Shown here in pieces: positions 23,686 through 61,390 of a DNA stretch of 64,000 nt (the stretch's first letter is position 1; every line of letters starts with the position of its first letter). A program made the position numbers and the translations under genes. The stretch is taken from positions 2,906,501 to 2,970,500 of the forward strand of contig NZ_CP063401.1 of NCBI RefSeq assembly GCF_021729885.1, given 5' to 3'. The stretch comes from Devosia sp. SL43 (lineage in GTDB: Bacteria > Pseudomonadota > Alphaproteobacteria > Rhizobiales > Devosiaceae). The notes beneath the pieces are model-generated. The model saw only the letters and a list, made by a program, of their open reading frames with translations, searched no databases and was not told where the DNA came from.

Positions 23686-24572
23686 TGGGTCAGGCCTTGC
23701 ACGATGGTCGATGTGGTAACGGACAACAGGTCCAGATACGTCGGAACCGGGCCATCTGGTTCAGACAGCGAGTCCACATACAGCACGCCGCCATACTTGA
23801 TGCCAGTTTCCCGGGCGACCTGTTCGGCCGGCTTGGACGAGATCGTGCTTTCCGAGAAGATTGCCGGCACATCATTGGCGCGCACTTCGTCGATCACGTG
23901 GCGCACCTGCTGCGGCGTGCCCTGCTGGTCGGCATTGATGGGCCAGAGATAGAGTTCCCTCAGGCCGAAATCGCGGGTGAGATAGCTAAACGCACCCTCC
24001 GACGTGGCCAGCCACCGGCGCTCTTCGGGAATGGCAGCGATGGCGGCGCGGATCGGCTCGACCGTCGCGGTGATCTTGGCCGAATAGGCGGCGGCATTTG
24101 CGGTGTAGACCGCCTCATTGGCCGGGTCGGCGGCGACGAAGGCCTTGCGGATGTTCTCCACGTAGATCAGCGCGTCGGTGGGCGACATCCAGGCATGCGG
24201 ATTGGGCTTGTCTTCATAAGGGCCTTCGCCGATCCCCATCGGCTCGATGCCTTCGGTGACCACGACAGATGGCACATCGCCCAGATTGGACAGGAACTGC
24301 TCGAACCATTGCTCGAGATTGAGCCCGTTCCACAGGATGAGATCGGCATCCTGCGCCGCGATCAGGTCGCCGGGGGTCGGCTGGTAATTGTGGATTTCGG
24401 CACCGGGCTTGGTGATCGACACCACATCGGCAGCATCCCCCGCCACGTTCCGCGCCATGTCGGCGATAATGGTGAAGGTGGTGACAGCCTTGAGACGCTC
24501 CTGGGCCAAGACGGGAAGCGAGCCGGCCAGCACAGCCGATAGGGCAAGAACAGAAAACAGGCGGCGATGCAT
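23682..24572 (-). CDS. sitA: Metal ABC transporter substrate-binding protein SitA-like
   Basis: 296 residues from the ATG at 24572 with GGAG eight bases upstream. Signal peptide [23 protein letters not shown]. Cluster A-I metal receptor: [14 protein letters not shown] and [11 protein letters not shown] supply two metal-binding histidines, [10 protein letters not shown] the Glu and [13 protein letters not shown] the Asp. The H-H-E-D set favours Mn2+/Fe2+ over zinc. No lipobox is visible, so it is soluble in the periplasm. First gene of the four-gene operon; a Fur/Mur-type box lies about 40 bases upstream. Confidence 0.93.
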
Positions 24573-24612
24573 CAATCACTCCAGGTCAGTATGACTGACA
24601 TGCATAGTGCAA

Positions 24613-24629
24613 TTGCAAATCATTCGCAA
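24613..24629. promoter_or_regulatory. Fur/Mur-type metal operator upstream of sitA
   Basis: TTGC-AAATCATTC-GCAA is a 17-base near-palindrome, 41 bases before the sitA start. It fits the TGCAAAT-N-ATTTGCA-like sites used by alphaproteobacterial Fur/Mur proteins at sitABCD promoters, so repression by Mn (Mur) or Fe (Fur) is expected. Assignment by resemblance only. Confidence 0.6.
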
Positions 24630-24966
24630 TAGCAGAGTGTCGTAGCCCTACGAATCGTCCGGCAGTGTTAGCGGGTGGAAAGGATTGCCCATGCCCATTC
24701 AAAAATGGCCCACGCCCCCCTAACAGTTTGGCCCATTGGTGATGGACGGAAAAAGTCAGCTACATGGCCTCATTCGGGCTACATCCGACAATTGTAGAGA
24801 TCCGGGCGTCTAATCTGAACGACGCTTGTTCTGCTTTGGGGCGGGAAGCTGCTGATCGTCGATGCCCCATTTCGGCCCTCAGGCCGCCTTTTCGATTTCC
24901 TGAAACCTGCCGGTCCGCTTAGCCGCTGGCGGTGGCAGCAAGGAGGTGGGAAGGCGACCCAGCGGA
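24630..24966. other. Gene-free stretch between sitA promoter and a small secreted-protein gene
   Basis: About 340 bases without a convincing ORF or SD-start pair. It contains ATGGCCCACGC at about 24704-24714, followed by TTGGCCCATTGG. A second ATGGCCCACGC lies at 28375-28385. Such GGCCCA-rich repeats occur at the ends of some IS21-type elements, so this may be a decayed insertion, but no transposase remnant is recognisable. Confidence 0.35.
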
Positions 24967-25368
24967 CTACATCACGTGTCTATACCTGGCGATACACGAC
25001 CCATCGGGCTGTATCCAAATGATCAGGCTTTCCCGAATAAGGATGTCCACCGGCCTGAAGAAGATCCAACTCATCGTGCCGTCGGGAAATCCCGCCCCAC
25101 TACTTGGCACCACAGCGCGAGGAAATTCGGGGTCCCGCAAAGCAATCTCATTTAGAGAGTCTGGATCGACCATTGCGCATACAAGTTCAGAGACATCGAT
25201 CGCGCGTGATCCCTCGGGCCCAAGTTTGAGCCAGAGTTGCTTTCGCTCGTTCATGAGCGCTTCGATTTGCGTGCGGAGATTGTGCTTCATTTGCTCCTCA
25301 GCACTCGGAGCATTTGGGAGGGTTAAGGCTGCACAACAGAGTATGGCGCTGAGTGTCAGAGTTCGCAT
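24967..25368 (-). CDS. Small secreted protein of unknown function
   Basis: 133 residues from the ATG at 25368, with GGGAGAG upstream. Signal peptide MRTLTLSAILCCAALTLPNAPSA. The mature part contains a basic helix (MKHNLRTQIEALMNERKQLW) and then RAIDVSELVCAMVDPDSLNEI and GFPDGTMSWIFFRPVDILI. Codon use looks less GC-biased than in neighbouring operons. No family recognised. It stands alone on this strand in a gene-poor stretch, so transfer is possible. Confidence 0.6.
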   Translation of the reverse strand: MRTLTLSAILCCAALTLPNAPSAEEQMKHNLRTQIEALMNERKQLWLKLGPEGSRAIDVSELVCAMVDPDSLNEIALRDPEFPRAVVPSSGAGFPDGTMSWIFFRPVDILIRESLIIWIQPDGSCIARYRHVM

Positions 25369-25893
25369 ACTTGGTCTCTCCCAATCATCAATCTCTAGGA
25401 TCGATTCTATCGATCGCCAGACTCTTCGGCGACAAGGTGTTGGAATGCGCTCACCATGCAAGATTGGTTAGCGGACGTCGGTAAGCTGCCCAGCCGCAGT
25501 CGACCCCATGGCGGTCCTTCGGGGTTCGATAGTGGCCTCCTAAAGCAGACGTTGAAGTCTGCACCCGGGCATGTCGGAGGTGAAGGCCTGGCGCTGCTTA
25601 ATCCCATTCTCGCCTGATTTGGCAGTTACTGACACCTACTGATCGAGATCATTGCCGGGTGGTTGGGCAGGTCGACAGGTGACTTCGTTATTCGCCTGTG
25701 TGTGCGGTCTCCTCGCGCGTGGTCGAAGAAGACATCGGCCTTGCCGAGGCTTTCACCCCTCTCAGACGTGGTGTCTCGCATGGCAGGAGCCATCCGCGCC
25801 GCGAGCACATTTCGTTCTGTGACCCGCTACGGCTGCGCAGGGTGAACCAGTCTCTCCCCGCCGCACCGAAATCAAACCTCACCGGAGCTTTTC
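25369..25893. other. Gene-free stretch before the prolyl oligopeptidase
   Basis: About 525 bases with only short overlapping open frames and no frame with both a good SD and a recognisable protein. It must hold the promoters of the small secreted-protein gene (leftward) and of the peptidase (rightward, SD CCGGAG before 25894). I see no repeat or RNA signature here. Confidence 0.5.
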
Positions 25894-28035
25894 ATGCGCA
25901 TTTCGTGGGCCTTCCTGGCCCTGACTCTGCTCGTCCCCGGCTCCGTAGCCGCCCAGCCCACAACGGAAACAGACATGTCCCAAATGATTTATCCCGAAAC
26001 AAAGCAGATACCGGTGGTCGAGGATCATTTCGGCCATACCATCACCGATCCCTATCGCTGGCTGGAGAACGATGTTCGCAGCGACGAGGAGGTGTCCCAG
26101 TGGGTCGAGGCGCAGAACTCGGTGACCGACGAGTATCTGGCTGGCCTACCGGGCCGGGCCGTTTTCGCCGAGCGAATGGCTGCACTGCTGAACTACGAGC
26201 AGGTCTCCGCGCCCGTCAAACGGGGCGGCCGGTATTTCTACACGCGTAATTCGGGCCAGGAGAACCAGCCGACACTTTACGTGCGGGACGACCTTGGTGG
26301 GCCGGCGAAGGCGCTGATCAACCCCAATGCGTGGTCGGCGGACAGCGGCGATGCGCTGGCCGAGTGGTCGCCATCCGACGATGGCCGTCTGGTCGCCTAT
26401 GGCGTGCAGCAGGGCGGCACAGACTGGCGCACCATCCGCGTGCTCGACGTCGATACCGGTACGGTGCTCGAGGATAGCGTCGCATGGGCCCGCTTCACCG
26501 ACATAGCCTGGGCCCCCGACGCCTCCGGCTTCTTCTATGCGCGCTTCCCCGAACCCGAAGGCGCCAATGCGGCGGCCGGTATCGTCAATCACGCGGTCTA
26601 TTTCCACGCTATCGGCACGCCTCAGTCCGAGGATCGGTTGATCTATGCCGACCCCACTCGGCCCACCAATCTCGTCCCGATCAAGCGGACTGCCGATGGC
26701 CGTTACCTCGCCATCTATCCCACCCCCGGCGCCGGCGCGAATGCCCTGGCGGTGGTCGATCTGGATAGCGAGTATTGGACACCGCGCATGCTGATCGAGG
26801 ATTTTACCGCCGATTGGTCCGTGGTCGGCAACGGTGGCAGCCGGCTCTATGTCAACACCAACCAGGATGCAGAGCGGGGGAAGATTGTGGTCTTCGATCT
26901 GGCGGAAGCCGAACCGCAGCCTGTCGAGGTGGTCGCGGAGGACGAAGCCGTAATCAGCAATGCCATCCTCGTCGGCGGGCGCCTGCTGACCACCTATCTT
27001 GTGGATGCCCAGACCGAGATGCGGCGCTTCCTGCCTGACGGCACGCCGGACGGCGTGGTGGACTTGCCGGGCATCGGCACGGCGGGCGGCATCCAGGGCG
27101 ATTTCGCTGAAGATGAAGCCTTCTTCCTCTTCACCAGCTTCGACACCCCGATCACAGTCTACCGCTACGACGTGGCCGCCAACAGCTACGACGGGTGGGC
27201 CGAGCCAAAACTGGCGGCAAATTTCAACAATGTCGTGGTCGAACAGCGGTTCTATACGTCAAAGGACGGGACGCAGGTTCCGATGTTCATCGTCAGCAAT
27301 GGTGATGTCACCAAGCCGGCGCCGACCTTGCTGTATGGGTATGGCGGGTTCGGCATCCCCATGGTGCCGTTCTACAACCCCCTGCAGATGGCCTGGGTAG
27401 AACAGGGCGGCGTGCTGGCGGTCGCCAATATCCGCGGTGGCGGCGAGTATGGCCGCGCCTGGCATCGGGCTGGACAGCTCGAAAACCGGCAGAACGCCTA
27501 TGACGACTTCATCGCTGCAAGCGAATATCTCAAGGCCGAGAAGATTGCCAGCGACGATGGTTTGGTCGTCCAGGGCGAATCCAATGGCGGCCTCCTCGTC
27601 GGGGTGGTGACCAACCAGCGGCCTGACCTTTTTGCAGCGGCGCTTCCCGGCGTCGGTGTGATGGATATGCTGCGATACCATCAGTTCACCGGCGGCGCCT
27701 TGTGGATTTCCGATTTTGGCAGCCCGGATGAAGAGGTGCATTTCGACAATCTCCTTGCCTATTCGCCCTATCACAACATCCGGGACGGCGAAGACTATCC
27801 GGCGATCCTGGCGACCACCGCGGATACCGACGATCGTGTTGTGCCGGGTCACACGTTCAAATACACCGCCGCTCTTCAGGCGGCAGACCTGGGAGACAAG
27901 CCCCATCTGGTCAGGATCGAGACCAGGGCCGGTCATGGCGCTGGCATGCCCCTCGACAAGGTCATCGCCCTGCATGCCGACCAATGGGCCTTCGCCGCAC
28001 ACTGGGCTGGCCTCGAAGTCGGCAAGACGCCGTGA
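25894..28035 (+). CDS. Prolyl oligopeptidase family serine peptidase (S9A), exported
   Basis: 713 residues. Signal peptide MRISWAFLALTLLVPGSVAA, so periplasmic or secreted. An N-terminal segment (DPYRWLENDVRSDEEVSQWV) and a seven-bladed propeller (about 80-440) precede the C-terminal alpha/beta-hydrolase domain. Catalytic Ser563 lies in VQGESNGGLL, the Asp in TADTDDRVVPGH and the His in TRAGHGAGMPL. It cuts short proline-containing peptides. Normal length for the family. Single gene with SD CCGGAG; no partner genes nearby. Confidence 0.94.
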   Translation: MRISWAFLALTLLVPGSVAAQPTTETDMSQMIYPETKQIPVVEDHFGHTITDPYRWLENDVRSDEEVSQWVEAQNSVTDEYLAGLPGRAVFAERMAALLNYEQVSAPVKRGGRYFYTRNSGQENQPTLYVRDDLGGPAKALINPNAWSADSGDALAEWSPSDDGRLVAYGVQQGGTDWRTIRVLDVDTGTVLEDSVAWARFTDIAWAPDASGFFYARFPEPEGANAAAGIVNHAVYFHAIGTPQSEDRLIYADPTRPTNLVPIKRTADGRYLAIYPTPGAGANALAVVDLDSEYWTPRMLIEDFTADWSVVGNGGSRLYVNTNQDAERGKIVVFDLAEAEPQPVEVVAEDEAVISNAILVGGRLLTTYLVDAQTEMRRFLPDGTPDGVVDLPGIGTAGGIQGDFAEDEAFFLFTSFDTPITVYRYDVAANSYDGWAEPKLAANFNNVVVEQRFYTSKDGTQVPMFIVSNGDVTKPAPTLLYGYGGFGIPMVPFYNPLQMAWVEQGGVLAVANIRGGGEYGRAWHRAGQLENRQNAYDDFIAASEYLKAEKIASDDGLVVQGESNGGLLVGVVTNQRPDLFAAALPGVGVMDMLRYHQFTGGALWISDFGSPDEEVHFDNLLAYSPYHNIRDGEDYPAILATTADTDDRVVPGHTFKYTAALQAADLGDKPHLVRIETRAGHGAGMPLDKVIALHADQWAFAAHWAGLEVGKTP

Positions 28036-28393
28036 TCCTGGTCTTGGATCACAGGTCAAACCCCGTTTGGTGGCATGACCTCCAAGTCCGGTTTTGCCGA
28101 AGTCAGCGTCTCGAACGCCGCGCGGTTGGGAGGGCGAGCAATGTTCGCCCCTCGATCGCAGATGCTAGAAAAGGGACCGTCGCTGGGCCGTCTTGTACTC
28201 GCTTCATTGTTACCAGAAGCTGATATTCCGTTGTCGGCCCAAGTTCACCAATCGCAAAAATGATCCGTTAGTGCATTGTTCTTACTTATCTTTCTTTGAT
28301 GTCTGGGGCATCCTATGGGCGATTTTACAAGTGAGTGTGAGCGGGTGGGCTGGAATGTTCACTACCCCCAGGAAATGGCCCACGCTTTCATAG
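28036..28393. other. Gene-free stretch upstream of the ECF sigma operon
   Basis: About 360 bases between the peptidase stop and the sigma-factor promoter. Small open frames lack an SD or a recognisable product. The ATGGCCCACGC motif at 28375-28385 repeats the one at about 24704. The GC content drops around 28240-28320. Confidence 0.4.
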
Positions 28394-28421
28394 TGATCCG
28401 GTGGGCGACCACCCGCGTAAG
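28394..28421 (+). promoter_or_regulatory. RpoE/ECF11-type promoter of the sigma-anti-sigma operon
   Basis: TGATCC (28394-28399), an 18-base spacer, then TAAG (28418-28421). This matches the promoter class recognised by Rhodobacter RpoE (ECF11), and it lies 24 bases before the start of the ECF sigma gene. It therefore fits positive autoregulation. I looked for another TGATCC-N18-TAAG upstream of crtY, SDR, crtE and fni and did not see one. Confidence 0.8.
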
Positions 28422-28445
28422 GACATTACCTGCGCGGAGAAACCG

Positions 28446-29045
28446 ATGTATATGGTGCCCATGACCGATGCAGAACGCAGGCAACCCTTGAGCGCTGGAC
28501 TGCAGGAAGACCCGTCTGCTTTGCTGCATCGCGTTGCACAGTTTAGGGACAAGGCTGCTCTGGCGGCCTTGTTCAGCATGTATGGCCCAAAGCTGAAGTC
28601 GATGATGCTCAAGCTTGGCACCAGCGACGCTCTGGCCGAGGACTTGGTTCAAGACACGTTTCTCAATGTCTGGCGCAAGGCCGCGCTCTATTCCAATCAA
28701 CGCGGTGCGGTGAGCACCTGGATTTTCACCATCGCCCGCAACCTGCGGATTGATCAGCTTCGGCGTCAATCCAACAAGCCCTACGAAGATCTCGAAGCTC
28801 TGGAACTGGCCAGCGAGGCGCCGACGGGATTGTTTCTGACCGAGCAAAACCAGGTTGTCGCCCGGGTAACGGCGGCTCTGGATACCTTGCCGCTGGAGCA
28901 GCAGGAGGTGATCCGCCTCAGCTTCATTCATGAATTGCCGCATGCGGAGATCGCCGAACGGACCGGCATTCCGCTTGGAACCGTAAAATCTCGACTGCGC
29001 CTTGCCTATGAACGGCTCCGGCCTGCGCTGGAGGATCTGCAATGA
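28446..29045 (+). CDS. rpoE: ECF sigma factor, RpoE type (ECF11, partner of ChrR)
   Basis: 199 residues from the ATG at 28446 (SD GGAGAA). Region 2 is FSMYGPKLKSMMLKLGTSDAL, AEDLVQDTFLNVWRKAALY, STWIFTIARNLRIDQLRR. Region 4 is LPLEQQEVIRLSFIHELPHAEIAERTGIPLGTVKSRLRLAYERLR. In Rhodobacter this sigma drives the singlet-oxygen response. The downstream ChrR-like gene overlaps by 4 bases. The autoregulatory promoter at 28394 and the adjoining carotenoid genes support a photo-oxidative stress role, but direct control of crt genes is not shown by the sequence. Confidence 0.93.
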   Translation: MYMVPMTDAERRQPLSAGLQEDPSALLHRVAQFRDKAALAALFSMYGPKLKSMMLKLGTSDALAEDLVQDTFLNVWRKAALYSNQRGAVSTWIFTIARNLRIDQLRRQSNKPYEDLEALELASEAPTGLFLTEQNQVVARVTAALDTLPLEQQEVIRLSFIHELPHAEIAERTGIPLGTVKSRLRLAYERLRPALEDLQ

Positions 29046-54070: not shown

Positions 54071-54967
54071 TCACTCACATATCCGCGCCGTACAGCTCTG
54101 CCCGTGGCACCCCAGGTCCAGATGCAGGTGGTCCTCATGCTCGGCATTGGCTTCCGGCCCCAGCACCGTCATGAAATCCCCGCAGGCGGCGTCATGCGCC
54201 AGCCGCAGCAGGCGACCCTCGGGCGCCGCCGCCGGCAGCCAGTTCGCCTCGACGGCAATGCTCCGCCCGTCCGCCAGCGTGAAGCCGGTGACGTCAATCG
54301 CATTGGCAAAGCCATGCTCGGATGTGCGCCCGGCCTCGCCGCCAACCACGGGCCGGCACATATAGCTTGTGCCCGTATCGATCGACGCCAATTCGCTCTC
54401 CAGCATTGCCCCGGCATAGCCGTCCACCGTTTCGGCCCAGCCCGGCATGGCGCTCGCTATCTGGCAATTGGTGGTCACCGGGCTCGATAGCGGCACCATC
54501 CGCCCGCGCACCAGCACTGCCGTCACCACCAGCGGCGATTGCTCCCCGCACATCCCCTCGCTGAGCGGTGGCGCCATCTCCGCCTCCACCAGCCCCTGCA
54601 TCACCGCCGGACACGCCACCTGATACACCCGCTCCGGCTCCGGCTCAGGCTCGGGCACAGCCACCGGCTCGGCCTCGACCTCAGCCTCAGGCTGAACCTC
54701 AACCTCCGGCTCAGGTTCCGCCTCAACAGCCGGAGCCTCCGGCGCCTGCACCACAGGCACATCCGGCAGGCTCGGCGGGCGTGGCCTTGGCACTGGCGGT
54801 GGATCGGCGACAGGCGCCACCGGCGGGGCTGGTCGCGTCGGCGCCTGTGCGGGCGGCGCGGTCAGTTCATCCACAAAATCCTGGATCGGCCCCAGAATAT
54901 CCTGCGCCATAGCAGGCGTGGCGAGGAGCAGCGGCAGGGCGATGGTCAGTCGGGTGAGCATGTTCAT
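54071..54967 (-). CDS. Extensin-like C-terminal domain protein (secreted LAS-type fold)
   Basis: 298 residues. Signal peptide [21 protein letters not shown]. Residues about 35-125 are a Pro/Glu/Val-rich spacer ([15 protein letters not shown], then [19 protein letters not shown]). The C-terminal domain has [14 protein letters not shown] and [13 protein letters not shown], the metal-binding His/Asp/His layout shared with D-Ala-D-Ala carboxypeptidases of the M15 type, with four or more cysteines. Likely acts on peptidoglycan; the family's activity is not well established. Confidence 0.88.
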
Positions 54968-55069
54968 CTCCCCCTAACGCACGAGCCATGCAAAAGGCAC
55001 CGCATTCGCGCCGTTAACATGCCGGAAACCATCTTTGCGCCCCGTCCCCGTTCTGCTATCAGCGCCCTC

Positions 55070-56875
55070 ATGACAACGCCGCTTTCCCACATCCGCAATT
55101 TTTCCATCGTCGCCCATATCGACCATGGCAAATCCACCCTGGCCGATCGCCTGATCCAGACCACGGGGGGCCTGGATTCCCGCGAGATGAAGGAGCAGGT
55201 GCTGGACTCGATGGATATCGAGCGCGAGCGCGGCATCACCATCAAGGCCCAGACCGTCCGGCTGACCTACAAGGCGCTCAACGGCGAGACCTATATCCTC
55301 AATCTCATCGACACGCCCGGCCACGTCGACTTCGCCTACGAAGTCTCCCGCTCCATGGCTGCCGTCGAAGGCTCCCTGCTGGTCGTCGATGCCTCCCAGG
55401 GTGTCGAGGCGCAGACGCTGGCCAATGTCTATCACGCCCTCGATGCCGGCCACGAAATCGTCCCCGTGCTCAACAAGGTCGATCTGCCCGCCGCCGACAT
55501 TCCGCGCGTCAAGCAGCAGATCGAGGACGTCATCGGCATCGACGCCAGCGAAGCCCTCGAAATCTCGGCGAAATCAGGCTTCGGCATCGACACCGTGCTC
55601 GAAGCCATCGTCCACCGTCTGCCCGCCCCCAAGGGCGATATCGATGCCCCGCTCAAGGCGCTGCTGGTCGATAGCTGGTACGATACCTATCTGGGCGTCG
55701 TGGTGCTGGTGCGCATTGTCGATGGCGTGATGAAGAAGGGCCAGCGCATCCGCATGATGGCCTCGGGCGCCGTCTATGAGCTCGATCGGGTCGCGGTCAA
55801 CACGCCCAAGCTGGTCGAGGTCAAGGAGCTGACCCCGGGCGAACTGGGCGTCTTCACCGCCTCGATCAAGGAAGTCGCCGAAACCAATGTCGGCGATACC
55901 ATCACCGATGATCGCAAGCCCACCGCCCAGGCTTTGCCCGATTTCCGCCCGGCCCAGCCGGTGGTATTCTGCGGCCTCTTCCCCGTCGATGCGTCCGACT
56001 TCGACGAGCTGCGCGCCGCCATGGGCAAGCTGCGCCTCAACGATGCCAGCTTCAGCTTCGAGATGGAAACGTCAGCCGCCCTCGGCTTCGGCTTCCGCTG
56101 CGGCTTCCTGGGCCTCTTGCATCTCGAAATCATCCAGGAGCGCCTCTCCCGCGAGTTCGATCTCGATCTGATCGCGACGGCGCCATCGGTGGTCTACGAA
56201 GTCGTCATGCGCGACGGCACGACCATCATGCTGCACAATCCGGCCGATCTGCCCGATGTGATGCAGATCGAGGAAATCCGCGAGCCCTGGATCAAGGCGA
56301 CCATCCTCACCCCCGACGAATATCTCGGCGCCATCCTCAAGCTCTGCCAGGATCGCCGCGGCATCCAGCGCAACCTGAGCTATGTCGGCAACCGCGCCAT
56401 GGTGGAATACGATCTGCCGCTCAATGAAGTGGTGTTCGATTTCTACGATCGCCTGAAGAGCATTTCCAAGGGCTATGCCAGCTTCGACTATACCCTGGCC
56501 GATCACCGCACCGGCGACCTGGTCAAGCTGACAATCCTGGTCAATGCCGAACCCGTCGACGCCCTCTCCATGCTGGTGCATCGCACTGTCGCCGAAAGCC
56601 GCGGCCGCATCATGTGCGAAAAGCTCAAGGAGCTGATCCCGCCGCATCTGTTCGTCATCCCGATCCAGGCCGCCATCGGCGGCAAGATCATCGCCCGCGA
56701 AACCGTCCGCGCCATGCGCAAGGACGTGACCGCCAAGTGCTATGGCGGCGACGCGACGCGCAAGCGCAAGCTGCTCGACAAGCAGAAAAAGGGCAAAGCC
56801 AAGATGCGCCAGTATGGCAGCGTGAACATCCCGCAGGAGGCGTTCATCAAGGCGCTGAAGATGGGGGATGACTGA
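55070..56875 (+). CDS. lepA: Elongation factor 4 (LepA)
   Basis: 601 residues from [20 protein letters not shown]; the in-frame extension to 54539 only shadows the previous gene. GTPase motifs G1 [10 protein letters not shown]3 DTPGHVDF, G4 NKVDLP, then the domain II-V order of EF-G without domain IV and the LepA C-terminal domain ([20 protein letters not shown]). It back-translocates or helps assemble ribosomes under stress. Normal length. Its stop is 36 bases from the low-GC NACHT gene. Confidence 0.97.
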
Positions 56876-56911
56876 GCGATACGCCACGAACCATCGCTTC
56901 GGATATTCCGG

Positions 56912-59900
56912 TTAAAGTTGGGCGACTACAAGTATTCCGGCCTCTATCCTTACAGTCAGACCTCTGCGGGGCGAGACCTCATCTAGCCAAAACAGGATAT
57001 CTCCCCGAAGAGAGCTATCTATACTGTTGTTGAATAGCGCTACAGCTTTCTCAAGGAAGGCACTGCCTTCAATTTGATCAAGAGTCGCTATCACACTGTG
57101 AGTTGGAAGGCCGTTTGACTTGTGCATGACCGACCATAATCGGTCTGTATTTCTGTATAATGGATTCTTCTCTATTAACCAGAGTACACTAGCAAACCAA
57201 GAATTCCATTCTTCTGTTTCGATAGCGGAAGTTTCTTGCAGGTATTCGTCGAAAAGACGAACGGCAGACTTTATGAACTTACTTGAGTTCATATCTGCTG
57301 CCATCGCAACTAGAGGTCGTAGCTTGTCTGGTGGAAGATTTGCGTTGTCCAAGATACTTTGAATCCAGCTGACAACCGATACGCACAGGGGATCGTCCGC
57401 ATTTGTGGTAACAAATGGGCCGCTCAGCAAAAAATCTCTTTGGGGGTGCACCGCAACGTGTCCAGCTCGCCGAGCGAGATCTTCAACTATCTCTATCTGT
57501 TGCTGTATCGGTAAATCTCTCTCTCTAACTATTTCTACCCACAAAATCAAAAGACTATTAGAGACGGTTCCCGCCAGCCGCCAAATAATGCTGTCAACTA
57601 GCGATTTTCCGTCAACGACATTAAGTAGACCAGAGATGGCATCCGCCTTGTCCGCTTGCTTCGCCCCCATTAGAATTCCGCAGAACAGCAGCTTTCGTTC
57701 GGCAGATACGTCAGGGTCATTCGATGCGTTGGCAATCACCTCCAGCAGACGAATACCGGCAGTTGAGCCGGGGCGCGCCGTGGCAAGGAAGCACGACAAT
57801 AGGCGTTCACTTTCGGAGTGTTCCCGGCATGCGGCGGCAAATTCTTCTTGCCACCAGGATGCGGCAAGCAAATCATTTGAGAAGTCGGTGCCAAAGCCGA
57901 ATCTTGAGGCGCTCATCGCCTCTAGGATGATTTTGCGGCCGTTCTTCTCTTCCTGCTTTGACAAACAGATTACCGCCGCCGCGCGGACCGGCAGGGGATA
58001 CCTTTCGTCACCTAATATCTCGTCCCAAGGCAAACTAGGCATGTCTTCTAGAGATCGAAGGAGCTTGGCTAGCACGCTTGCTTCTAGGGAGTTGTCCGAC
58101 TCTGACAAGGCGCGGCTCAACAGCAAATCGGCCGCAGGCGAGCCAGCGTTGCGTATAGCCTCACTCCATCCTTCGTGCCACAATTCCCTTATGTCGGGTC
58201 CGCTAAGCAGCACGCTCAAACACTTGACCGTCAACTCCCCATCTGCAGCAATCCGCAATACTTCGGGTCGCTCTTCTAAGAACCCTCTAGGTTGGCACAT
58301 CGCCTCTCGTATGGCGTCATTTGGCGGGCGAGCGAACCCGTCCGCAATGACTCGACCAATGGCTTGCCGCACCGAGTACGTTCCAGCGCCCCATGAGGCA
58401 GCGAGCTTGCACGCCACCTTTTCGCGCAGCTCAAAGTTCACTTGAGCGCCGTTCGCTATAACTCGACCAACTATCCTGAGTGTTGTTCGAAAATAATCAT
58501 CCGGCTCATCGAGTTGCCTCTCCACCAAATCTTCAACAGAATCAATTCGTTCAAGGGCAAACTGTAGCGCCTGAGCCCAGGGCCGCCTTGCGGCCTTCCT
58601 AAACCATTCACCCGCACCATCAAGACTCTGCGATGCGAGCGCGCAACCTGCCAAATACTCAGCCACAGTGGCAATGTCGAAGTGAATGCGCGATCCTCTC
58701 CTCTTAACGAGGCCGCATCGCAGTAATTCGTCGATGCCGATATCTCCCTCGGCCCCCACAGCGCCAGCCGCGTTGCTTCGCACGACATTTTCGTCGATCG
58801 ACAGCTCCGAGCGCCGAAGGGCCAGCATTGCCATCGACTCGGCCGCTCGCCTTAGAATGGTCACTGAAAGGCCGGGTGGCTTGGTCCTCTTGTGCCTTTG
58901 TGGCGCCAGTAGATTTCCAAGATATCGCTCGATTAGCTCCGACCGGCTCCTTGGAAGTACGCCAGACTTTGGGAGCGTACCAACCAGCATCGCGAGAAAC
59001 AAAGGTATCCGACAGATACTCCGGAGATCGGGATTCTTGAAAATAGATGATTGAAGTTTGTCGCTGTTTTCAATGTTTCTCTTTTGCAGGTAATTCCGGA
59101 GACCTTCCTTGACTTTTTCGTCCGAGAAACGGAGAACAGAAAGACGCGTAAAGCCATGCGGTATCGCAATCAAAGAACTATTTCTAGCCGCCAATATTAT
59201 GGGCAGCGACGCATGCCGGCCGGAAACTCGCGAAACTAAATCCATGACTCGGATACGGGCAACATCATCAACCTCATCCAACCCATCCAGAAACAGAACT
59301 GCCCGCTCGGAATTTATCACCGCCGCCCAGTCGATTGTGACTCCATACTGTTTGTTCACAGCGCCTAGACCGTATTCTTCTAGGGTTGGCCATGATTGCA
59401 ATTCGTCGGCCGTAGTGAAAATAGGAACGTAAGGTGTTTCTGCGATTATCCGAGTGCACAGCGCGCGAAGAATGGTCGTTTTTCCAAAACCTGCGCCCGC
59501 TTCCAATATTATCCGTCCATTATTCAGCGCTGGAAAGCGGCTAATATCTGCCGCCTCGGAGCCTGCCGATATGTCGTAGTGCCGGAACCGGTGGTCTTCT
59601 TGTTCGAAATCACTCTCGTCCGACTTGAAGTTACTGACCTCAGGCCAAACAAAAAGATCAACTTCCGGCCCTTGCAGGTCTGCCCCCGGAACGGATAGCT
59701 CACGCACCTGCGTGGCAAGCGCGCCTAAGTAATGTTCCAGACCGTCGCTAGTTGAACCATAGATTCGTACGTCATATTTGCTTCGCAACACCTCAAGAAG
59801 TTGGAAGGCGGTAAATGTTGCGCGCCCTCGTGCGGCGAGGGCGCTCTCGTCACGTAGTAACGAAAGGAGTTGTAACTTTCCGACGGACGATTCGGGCACC

Positions 59901-60442
59901 CAGTCGCGAACTCCAATAGTTTCGATGTTGCGAGTAGTTTCGAACTCAATCGCGACGCTGTTTAGCGTCGGCCAGCATTCGGCGAGGTTGCAACCCAAGG
60001 CGTCCGAAACCTTGCCGATTATTGCAAGCTGGACCTGAGAGAGCGCCTCGACCCACTCCACCCCGTCATTCTTACCACGCGATCTAGCACAGGCCTCCCT
60101 AAGGGCATCCAACTCCGCGCTGTAGGTACCGACGATAATGCTACAACGAGCCGTTCGACTTGCTGCTCGTTGCTTCAGAACGGACTGCCACAATGATCTC
60201 CACACTTCGCCGGATGTGGCCAAGGCTTCCTTTGCTTGAATGTGGAGCCGAGTTCCGTCGGCGTACTCCACTACGATATCATCCACCGGGTCGGGAGCTT
60301 CGACACGAATAGAAGCAATCTTTGCTTCGCCCGGAATTGTCCTCAGGTCTAGCATGCGGCCCAGATACAATGCCGCCAGACTATTCTGATACCTAATTCC
60401 GGATTGAGTAGTTGGCCCACCTGCTTCCGGCATGAAACGCAT
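56912..60442 (-). CDS. DUF4297/Cap4-like nuclease-NACHT ATPase with helical-repeat C-terminus (candidate antiphage NLR-like protein)
   Basis: 1176 residues (second ATG at 60433 possible; AAGGAG upstream). Residues 8-31 GGPTTQSGIRYQNSLAALYL and then E48, D54-D55 (DDIVVEY) and Q69-A-K71 (HIQAKEAL) give the E-x-DD-x-QxK core of a PD-(D/E)xK nuclease, as in DUF4297/Cap4 proteins. A NACHT module follows: Walker A EAGAGFGKTT (316-323), Walker B AVLFLDGLDEVDD (381-393), sensor Arg in IILAARNSS. From about 520 to the end it is rich in helices of HEAT/ARM type. The GC content is visibly lower than in lepA or the right-hand neighbour, which suggests acquisition. No partner gene is adjacent; it looks self-contained. 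Confidence 0.85.
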   Translation of the reverse strand: MRFMPEAGGPTTQSGIRYQNSLAALYLGRMLDLRTIPGEAKIASIRVEAPDPVDDIVVEYADGTRLHIQAKEALATSGEVWRSLWQSVLKQRAASRTARCSIIVGTYSAELDALREACARSRGKNDGVEWVEALSQVQLAIIGKVSDALGCNLAECWPTLNSVAIEFETTRNIETIGVRDWVPESSVGKLQLLSLLRDESALAARGRATFTAFQLLEVLRSKYDVRIYGSTSDGLEHYLGALATQVRELSVPGADLQGPEVDLFVWPEVSNFKSDESDFEQEDHRFRHYDISAGSEAADISRFPALNNGRIILEAGAGFGKTTILRALCTRIIAETPYVPIFTTADELQSWPTLEEYGLGAVNKQYGVTIDWAAVINSERAVLFLDGLDEVDDVARIRVMDLVSRVSGRHASLPIILAARNSSLIAIPHGFTRLSVLRFSDEKVKEGLRNYLQKRNIENSDKLQSSIFKNPDLRSICRIPLFLAMLVGTLPKSGVLPRSRSELIERYLGNLLAPQRHKRTKPPGLSVTILRRAAESMAMLALRRSELSIDENVVRSNAAGAVGAEGDIGIDELLRCGLVKRRGSRIHFDIATVAEYLAGCALASQSLDGAGEWFRKAARRPWAQALQFALERIDSVEDLVERQLDEPDDYFRTTLRIVGRVIANGAQVNFELREKVACKLAASWGAGTYSVRQAIGRVIADGFARPPNDAIREAMCQPRGFLEERPEVLRIAADGELTVKCLSVLLSGPDIRELWHEGWSEAIRNAGSPAADLLLSRALSESDNSLEASVLAKLLRSLEDMPSLPWDEILGDERYPLPVRAAAVICLSKQEEKNGRKIILEAMSASRFGFGTDFSNDLLAASWWQEEFAAACREHSESERLLSCFLATARPGSTAGIRLLEVIANASNDPDVSAERKLLFCGILMGAKQADKADAISGLLNVVDGKSLVDSIIWRLAGTVSNSLLILWVEIVRERDLPIQQQIEIVEDLARRAGHVAVHPQRDFLLSGPFVTTNADDPLCVSVVSWIQSILDNANLPPDKLRPLVAMAADMNSSKFIKSAVRLFDEYLQETSAIETEEWNSWFASVLWLIEKNPLYRNTDRLWSVMHKSNGLPTHSVIATLDQIEGSAFLEKAVALFNNSIDSSLRGDILFWLDEVSPRRGLTVRIEAGILVVAQL

Positions 60443-60566
60443 TCTCCTTTGCCGGGCAGATCATCCTAATTGACTGCGACACTCAAGTCAGGATGTTAAG
60501 TAATCCCCGCCCCTCCACCCCGCCTTACCCTCTCCTCTCCGGCATCGTGCCAAGAGAGGAGTTTTC

Positions 60567-61184
60567 ATGTCCCCACACACCACCCAGCCGTCCTTCGGGC
60601 CCGGCCCTCAGGACCAGCTTGCGCCGCAAGCTGCGCCCGATCCCAGCCCGGGCCACACCACGCTTGCCCTGGCCGAACGCCACGAGGCGCTCTGGCTGAG
60701 CCTGAGTGCCCTGCATAAAGACATCGTCGCCCTCGGCGCCAAAAAGCCCGGCGCCCCCGTTTCCGAGCCGGTGCGCATCGCGGCCGAAGGCCTGCTCAGC
60801 GATTGCGCCGCCTTCACCCGCAAGCGCAACGAGCGCCTGCCGGTCGCTGCCGCCGACCTCGGCGGGCTCGCCGTGCAACTGGGCCAGGCCCTGGCCGGGC
60901 TCGAGACCTGGGAGAGCCACCACACCAGCTGGGACGCGCGCTTCGACTGCCGCATTTGGTCGCTCCATCGCGGCTACCGGCCGATCCTGCGCCTCAACCC
61001 GCCCGCCGCAGCGCTCAAATTCCAGCCGAGCAATATGGACGAGCTGCGCAACAAGCTCGCCATCCGCATCAGCCAGAGAAATCGCGGCATCTATCGCGAG
61101 GGTTTCGCCGCCGGCCTCGCCGCCGCGCGGGCGGGTGGGGCCGAGGACGGCGGAGCGCCAATACTTGGTCTCCACCGATCCTGA
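60567..61184 (+). CDS. Unknown cytoplasmic protein
   Basis: 205 residues with SD AGAGGAG. N-terminal Pro/Gln-rich stretch (FGPGPQDQLAPQAAPDPSPG), then helices (LALAERHEALWLSLSALHKDIVAL), DLGGLAVQLGQALAGLETWE, and a C-terminal KLAIRISQRNRGIYREGFAAG LAAARAGG tail. No signal peptide, membrane helix or known motif. It has normal high GC and lies 125 bases from the NACHT gene, divergent from it. Its end touches a cluster of dispersed repeats. No sign that it works with the NACHT protein. Confidence 0.65.
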   Translation: MSPHTTQPSFGPGPQDQLAPQAAPDPSPGHTTLALAERHEALWLSLSALHKDIVALGAKKPGAPVSEPVRIAAEGLLSDCAAFTRKRNERLPVAAADLGGLAVQLGQALAGLETWESHHTSWDARFDCRIWSLHRGYRPILRLNPPAAALKFQPSNMDELRNKLAIRISQRNRGIYREGFAAGLAAARAGGAEDGGAPILGLHRS

Positions 61185-61194
61185 CCCTACCCCC

Positions 61195-61299
61195 GATGTC
61201 ATTCCGGCGAAGGCCGGAATCCATGTCCGTGGTTTTCCGCCTACATCCAGCATACGGGTAGCTCGCCGCATGGATCCCGGCCTGCGCCGGGATGACATC
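61195..61299. repeat. Dispersed inverted repeat (GATGTCATTCCGGC type)
   Basis: Left arm GATGTCATTCCGGCGAAGGC and right arm ending GCGCCGGGATGACATC form a long, nearly perfect hairpin with a middle part including GGAATCCATG / CATGGATCCC. Elements with such arms are widespread in alphaproteobacterial intergenic regions. Non-coding. Directly followed by the 45-base G/C repeat. Confidence 0.8.
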
Positions 61300-61313
61300 G
61301 GGTTTGGGGGCCC

Positions 61314-61358
61314 ACCCCCTCCCTTGATCCCTCCCCACAAGGGGGAGGGTGTCGACTG
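61314..61358. repeat. 45-base GC-rich repeat, inverted copy of 10902-10946
   Basis: Identical over 45 bases to the reverse complement of 10902-10946 (core CCCTCCCCACAAGGGGGAGG). Flanks differ. Together with the neighbouring GATGTCATTCC repeat it fills the gap between the unknown gene and the possible structured RNA. Confidence 0.8.
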
Positions 61359-61390
61359 GGGGCTCAGTTATCCATCTTATCCCCACCCCC

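Follow-up and report, generated by a model that had tools for sequence, protein, structure and literature searches.

A one-gene Cap4-type nuclease-NACHT-HEAT-like protein, a likely NLR-like immune receptor, at a lepA-linked defence hotspot in Devosia

We analysed a window of 64,000 nucleotides (the whole stretch of DNA considered here) from Devosia sp. SL43. An intact ORF on its reverse strand (56912..60442) encodes a protein composed of a Cap4-type nuclease domain, a NACHT module and a HEAT-like C-terminal region, 1176 aa long if read from M1. Translation probably starts at M4 (60433), yielding 1173 aa, since the relatives begin at M4 and the Shine-Dalgarno sequence AAAGGAG (60444..60450, reverse strand) lies 10 nt before M4 but only 1 nt before M1. 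The gene is flanked by lepA (54539..56875, forward strand), whose true start lies within these coordinates, and by orf205 (60567..61184, forward strand), a conserved gene of unknown function. Its GC content is 0.527 and its GC3 0.535; across the window's 38 ORFs of at least 250 aa, some of which are mechanical ORFs rather than genes, the corresponding values are 0.634 ± 0.025 and 0.744 ± 0.083. Around the gene, promoter-like and terminator-like patterns are no commoner than chance would give. Two further GC dips, to 0.55-0.58, occur at 24500-26000 and 27500-29000 of the window, distant from this gene, and an inverted-repeat-like element at 61080-61360, which reads ...IPAKAGIH...MDPGLRRDD... 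on both strands, resembles dispersed palindromic repeats.

The PD-(D/E)xK nuclease domain spans aa 4-225 (59768..60433, reverse strand) and carries GGPTTQSGIRYQ at residues 8-19, together with a putative active site consisting of E48, D54-D55 and Q69-A-K71 (60230..60301, reverse strand). In 16 aligned N-termini, E48, D54, D55 and K71 were invariant and position 69, which is Q in this protein, was Q, N or S. A search of the PDB with the single sequence returned nothing, and matches were obtained with profiles. A separate prediction of this domain from 15 sequences (pLDDT 86.9, pTM 0.83) showed a Cap4-type (DUF4297) fold: its 12 best structural matches were all Cap4-group defence nucleases (Z 10.8 to 8.8), including LmuA (9nxx; Z 10.8, 3.8 Å over 173 aa), Cap4 (6vm6; Z 10.4), Avs3 (8dgc; Z 10.2), 8zue (Z 9.8) and HerA-DUF (9c1m; Z 9.7), restriction enzymes ranked after this group (Z ≤ 7.6), and Cap4 was also the top Foldseek match (5e-5). 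The sequence profile of the domain matched chain 8zue (E 6e-4) with E...D...QVK aligned, and the PADLOC LmuA, HamA and PDC-M54A models matched most family members. With the threshold set at E ≤ 1, Pfam PF14130 (Cap4_nuclease) matched 6 of 18 members, and these weakly (best E 0.016); this protein was not one of them. The residues follow the Cap4-type active-site pattern E, D, (D/E/Q)xK, with N or S at position 69 in some members; because the family has Q, N or S at a position that is D/E in the motif, we assume catalysis by reference to Cap4-group relatives with the same Q, such as 8zue. Chloroflexota proteins of about 1525 aa (L012:10001-14575, L026:735-5306) have a nuclease domain 36-38% identical to this one and a different C-terminal part, a case of domain shuffling of this nuclease variant.

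The NACHT nucleotide-binding domain (aa 301-450; 59093..59542, reverse strand, as are all features of the protein) contains the Walker A motif GAGFGKTT (residues 316-323; 59474-59497) and the Walker B motif LFLDGLDE (residues 383-390; 59273-59296). It is followed by the helical/winged-helix part of the module (aa 451-735; 58238..59092), which is NLRP3/NLRC4-like and bears invariant RPWxQ and NG motifs. The full-length model (pLDDT 78.5) superposed on NLRP3 (7vtp; Z 30.1 over 414 aa, 3.7 Å) and NLRC4 (4kxf; Z 29.8) from residue ~229 to 730. Pfam NACHT matched 17 of 17 members (best 3e-9), with this protein alone scoring 20.3 bits, under the curated cut-off of 26.7. The Walker residues G316, G320, K321, D386, D389 and E390 were invariant in the 17 members. 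By the Pfam matches, the Z scores and these residues, the protein has what characterizes bNACHT proteins, a STAND ATPase of the NACHT type in which both Walker motifs are intact. The invariance of the Walker residues, and of E48, D54, D55 and K71 in the N-termini, argues that neither set of motifs consists of chance letters.

The remaining region (aa 736-1176; 56915..58237), the presumed sensor, was helical throughout in the structure model and is composed of HEAT-like repeats: Pfam HEAT_2 was found in 5 of 17 members, and the family profile matched HEAT-like alphaRep proteins (2e-6). It is the least conserved region, with a mean pairwise identity of 0.24, compared with 0.385 for the nuclease and 0.41 for the NACHT. 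Such fast divergence would be the pattern expected of a diversifying sensor. Effector, NACHT and a C-terminus that would do the sensing are thus combined in one chain, as in bNACHT proteins. An earlier note, made from the DNA letters alone, had pointed to the N-terminal residues E48, D54-D55 and Q69-x-K71 after a GGxxxxxGxxYQ-type start, which are present as described. It had also proposed a PD-(D/E)xK domain of the Cap4/DUF4297 type, a canonical NACHT with GAGFGKTT and LFLDGLDE, and a helical C-terminus. All three assignments were borne out, by the structural, PADLOC and 8zue profile matches, by Pfam and the NLRP3/NLRC4 superpositions, and by the predicted structure, respectively.

Single-protein scans of the genome and viral collections retrieved nothing, and it took a 4-member alignment as the query to recover relatives there. 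A full-length relative in Tardiphaga robiniae is 36% identical, and one on a Rhizobium phaseoli plasmid is likewise full length and 34% identical; a third, on a Gemmobacter fulvus plasmid, is 30% identical over a match that spans 72% of the query, although the gene itself is full length. Other full-length relatives were found in Rhodoferax, Sphingomonas (two), Pseudomonas, Pelagimonas, Sphingorhabdus, Roseicyclus, Novosphingobium, Aurantiacibacter and Bradyrhizobium (truncated at its end), and on two IMG/VR contigs. They are mainly alphaproteobacterial, most being only 23-36% identical to this protein. In the order they are rare, with matches at E 1e-20 in three of 397 genomes, and in one of the three the match is confined to part of the NACHT. 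The relatives are lone genes of the family in varied settings. One is near an integrase gene and a gpP-type terminase gene (P2-like prophage), another is between the glmS and TnsD genes (Tn7-like insertion) and a third adjoins a serine recombinase. Neighbouring genes matched PDC-S68 in Rhizobium (E 0), PDC-M54A in Gemmobacter (E 0), PD-Lambda-4_A in Pseudomonas (2e-258) and GmrSD/Orf5 in Sphingorhabdus (5e-195). On the Gemmobacter plasmid (L011:9535-14397), the full-length PDC-M54A gene stands back to back with the NACHT gene, beside an LA2681-type HEPN gene.

The gene was found in none of the 74 genomes that represent the rest of the genus. This absence and the low GC content show that it was acquired by horizontal transfer, in agreement with the earlier note, which had inferred a transferred one-gene system from a GC content lower than that of the surroundings; the relatives, too, are always single genes. 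The note had held that a gene of normal composition at this locus in all relatives, or a missing nuclease or NACHT fold, would speak against its reading; the gene is missing from all 74 genomes and both folds were found.

We also compared the lepA-orf205 junction across the genus, as the earlier note had suggested. The two genes lay on one contig, 1.2-5.2 kb apart, in 46 genomes including the source genome; orf205 itself, which has no Pfam match, occurs in 50 of 75 genus genomes and, outside the genus, in two related genera within the family. An empty site had been expected in sister species, but all 46 junctions were occupied and none was empty. The cargo in the window extends from the lepA stop codon to the conserved block before orf205 (56876..60500). 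The left edge is sharp, with the cargo diverging directly after the lepA stop codon. The right edge is the orf205 leader (60501..60566; TAATCCCCGCCCCTCCACCCCGCCTTACCCTCTCCT...), and in many species the cargo stops at the conserved block TAATCCCCGCCCCTCC..., ~65 bp before orf205. The cargo varies by species: 71 proteins from the window and 40 other junctions (in one, the cargo was taken downstream of lepA, as orf205 was not found in that genome) fell into 52 clusters, 40 of which were singletons.

PADLOC models matched the cargo, at E below 1e-20, in 12 of the 16 junctions whose largest cargo proteins were scanned, a choice that favours recognised systems, so that the figure is no rate for all cargo. 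The matches comprised DRT3 (two), IetAS, Olokun, Dsr1, type IIG restriction (four), a type I methyltransferase with its specificity subunit, an OLD/GajA-like ATPase and a DpdB-like protein, whereas none of 10 large genes elsewhere in the window, used as a control, matched at 1e-10. The interval between lepA and orf205 is a hotspot of defence genes across the genus, a feature missing from the earlier note. Part of the cargo is not recognisable as defence, and several occupants had no match to known models. A protein of ~303 aa (MTFGVFIHRADSIYDDSPA...) recurs in the hotspot with 80-87% identity in six species, and a MKRLVIFCDGTWNRMSAEHPTNVL protein recurs in four. The hotspot is not a tRNA integration site, since scans detected no tRNA in the 64-kb window and no Rfam family at the junction. 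We saw no obvious integrase among the listed and scanned cargo ORFs (small ORFs were annotated in part), so the simplest guess is that cargo is exchanged by recombination within the conserved flanks. We did not find such a lepA hotspot in the open literature, which is weak evidence of absence; as far as could be seen, the hotspot and the family, taken as a set, are new. The junction also offers a convenient entry point for work on this Hyphomicrobiales genus: a single 1-5 kb interval per genome yields different cargo, often defence, including cargo recognised by no model.

Nuclease-NACHT proteins are the bacterial counterparts of inflammasome receptors. The fold, the neighbours of the relatives and the hotspot support the defence function that the earlier note had considered likely, and we regard it as likely that the gene encodes a single-protein NLR-like immune receptor, which would cut DNA abortively after sensing through its C-terminus. 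In the resting cell, the NACHT would presumably hold ADP and keep the protein inactive. The HEAT-like C-terminus would recognise a component of the phage or other invader, or a host change caused by the invader, whereupon the NACHT would swap its nucleotide and oligomerise, gathering the N-terminal Cap4-type nuclease domains. The clustered nucleases would cut double-stranded DNA of both invader and host, so that the infected cell halts before phage release (abortive infection). The trigger, the oligomerisation, the DNA cutting and the abortive outcome are proposed by analogy with bNACHT25/32, described below, and with HerA-DUF4297, a dsDNA nuclease that depends on dimerisation of its DUF4297 domain (PMC11291478).

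Given that relatives are carried by plasmids, a P2-like prophage and a Tn7-like element, the main target might be plasmids or competing mobile elements rather than phages, or the protein might help its carrier element persist. We consider this rather unlikely, since phage defence genes use the same elements and anti-phage systems are found among the neighbours and the hotspot cargo. Still within a defence role, the nuclease may be catalytically weak or dead and bind DNA or act as a scaffold instead of cutting, in line with the Q/N/S variation at the third motif position between fixed neighbours; this is improbable, as E48, D54, D55 and K71 are invariant despite identities of mostly 23-36%, as expected of a working active site, and the aligned Cap4-group chain 8zue is likewise QxK. 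Many STAND ATPases are regulators, and the maltose-system regulator structure 8bob matches the full model at Z 13.0, below NLRP3 and NLRC4, but a MalT-type signalling regulator with no role in defence is highly implausible given the nuclease effector domain, the absence in sister species, the GC anomaly and the defence hotspot.

An immune receptor of this kind shares its nuclease fold with Cap4 (CBASS), LmuA (Lamassu), HamA (Hachiman) and HerA-DUF4297. The effectors of those systems are switched by a cyclic nucleotide, SMC proteins, a helicase or HerA, and not by a NACHT on the nuclease's own chain. Two NCBIfam NACHT anti-phage proteins are similar in the NACHT region, DS-8 (E 3e-7 over aa 262-392), which carries a metallophosphatase domain (PMC13092281), and EruA (E 2e-3); membership in either family was rejected, the scores being 28 bits against a cut-off of 790 and 16 against 1000. 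The N-terminal domain is homologous to those of the PADLOC candidate PDC-M54A (aa 6-85 of this protein, E 6e-11) and Herpetosiphon Haur_5217 (36% identity over aa 4-211), proteins whose ATPase/sensor part is different and longer. This protein is not a full-length PDC-M54A, as only residues 6-85 match, compared with the whole length (E 0) in the true member P0007.

Avs3 (8dgc) has a comparable layout, with a Cap4-type nuclease at the N-terminus, then a STAND ATPase and then a repeat sensor, and its structural match spans the nuclease and ATPase domains (model residues 4-546). However, the ATPase of this protein is NACHT-like (Z about 30 with NLRP3/NLRC4, compared with 12.9 for Avs3), and the Avs3 chain has ~2000 aa against 1176 aa here. 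We do not assign the protein to Avs (AVAST), since no PADLOC Avs model was among its listed matches at E up to 1; none was among the 9 families matching the 17 members at E up to 0.01 either.

One of the closest parallels in architecture was overlooked by the earlier note, which knew of no characterised system with exactly this order. That statement was wrong, since a NACHT with a PD-(D/E)xK effector is already established: bNACHT25 and bNACHT32 (clade 6) are proven anti-phage proteins consisting of a PD-(D/E)XK nuclease, a NACHT and the helical domain NCH1, in which the nuclease mutation D48A abolishes defence and infection causes DNA degradation (PMC12169576). Both resemble this protein in having an N-terminal PD-(D/E)XK DNase, a central NACHT and a helical C-terminus encoded by a single gene. 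Their C-terminus is NCH1 and that of this protein is HEAT-like; the Pfam matches listed for it at E up to 1 do not include NCH1, in a set that may lack an NCH1 model. We offer only tentatively, and rather doubt, the broader claim that these one-gene Cap4-NACHT-HEAT receptors form an undescribed, mainly alphaproteobacterial family on plasmids, prophages and transposons, with a sensor trigger unlike that of characterised bNACHT and Avs proteins and a nuclease that uses a neutral Q/N/S. An additional nuclease-NACHT family with a different, HEAT-like sensor offers a means of studying what bacterial NLRs respond to. The Cap4-NACHT-HEAT protein itself is an uncharacterised member of the known nuclease-NACHT kind.
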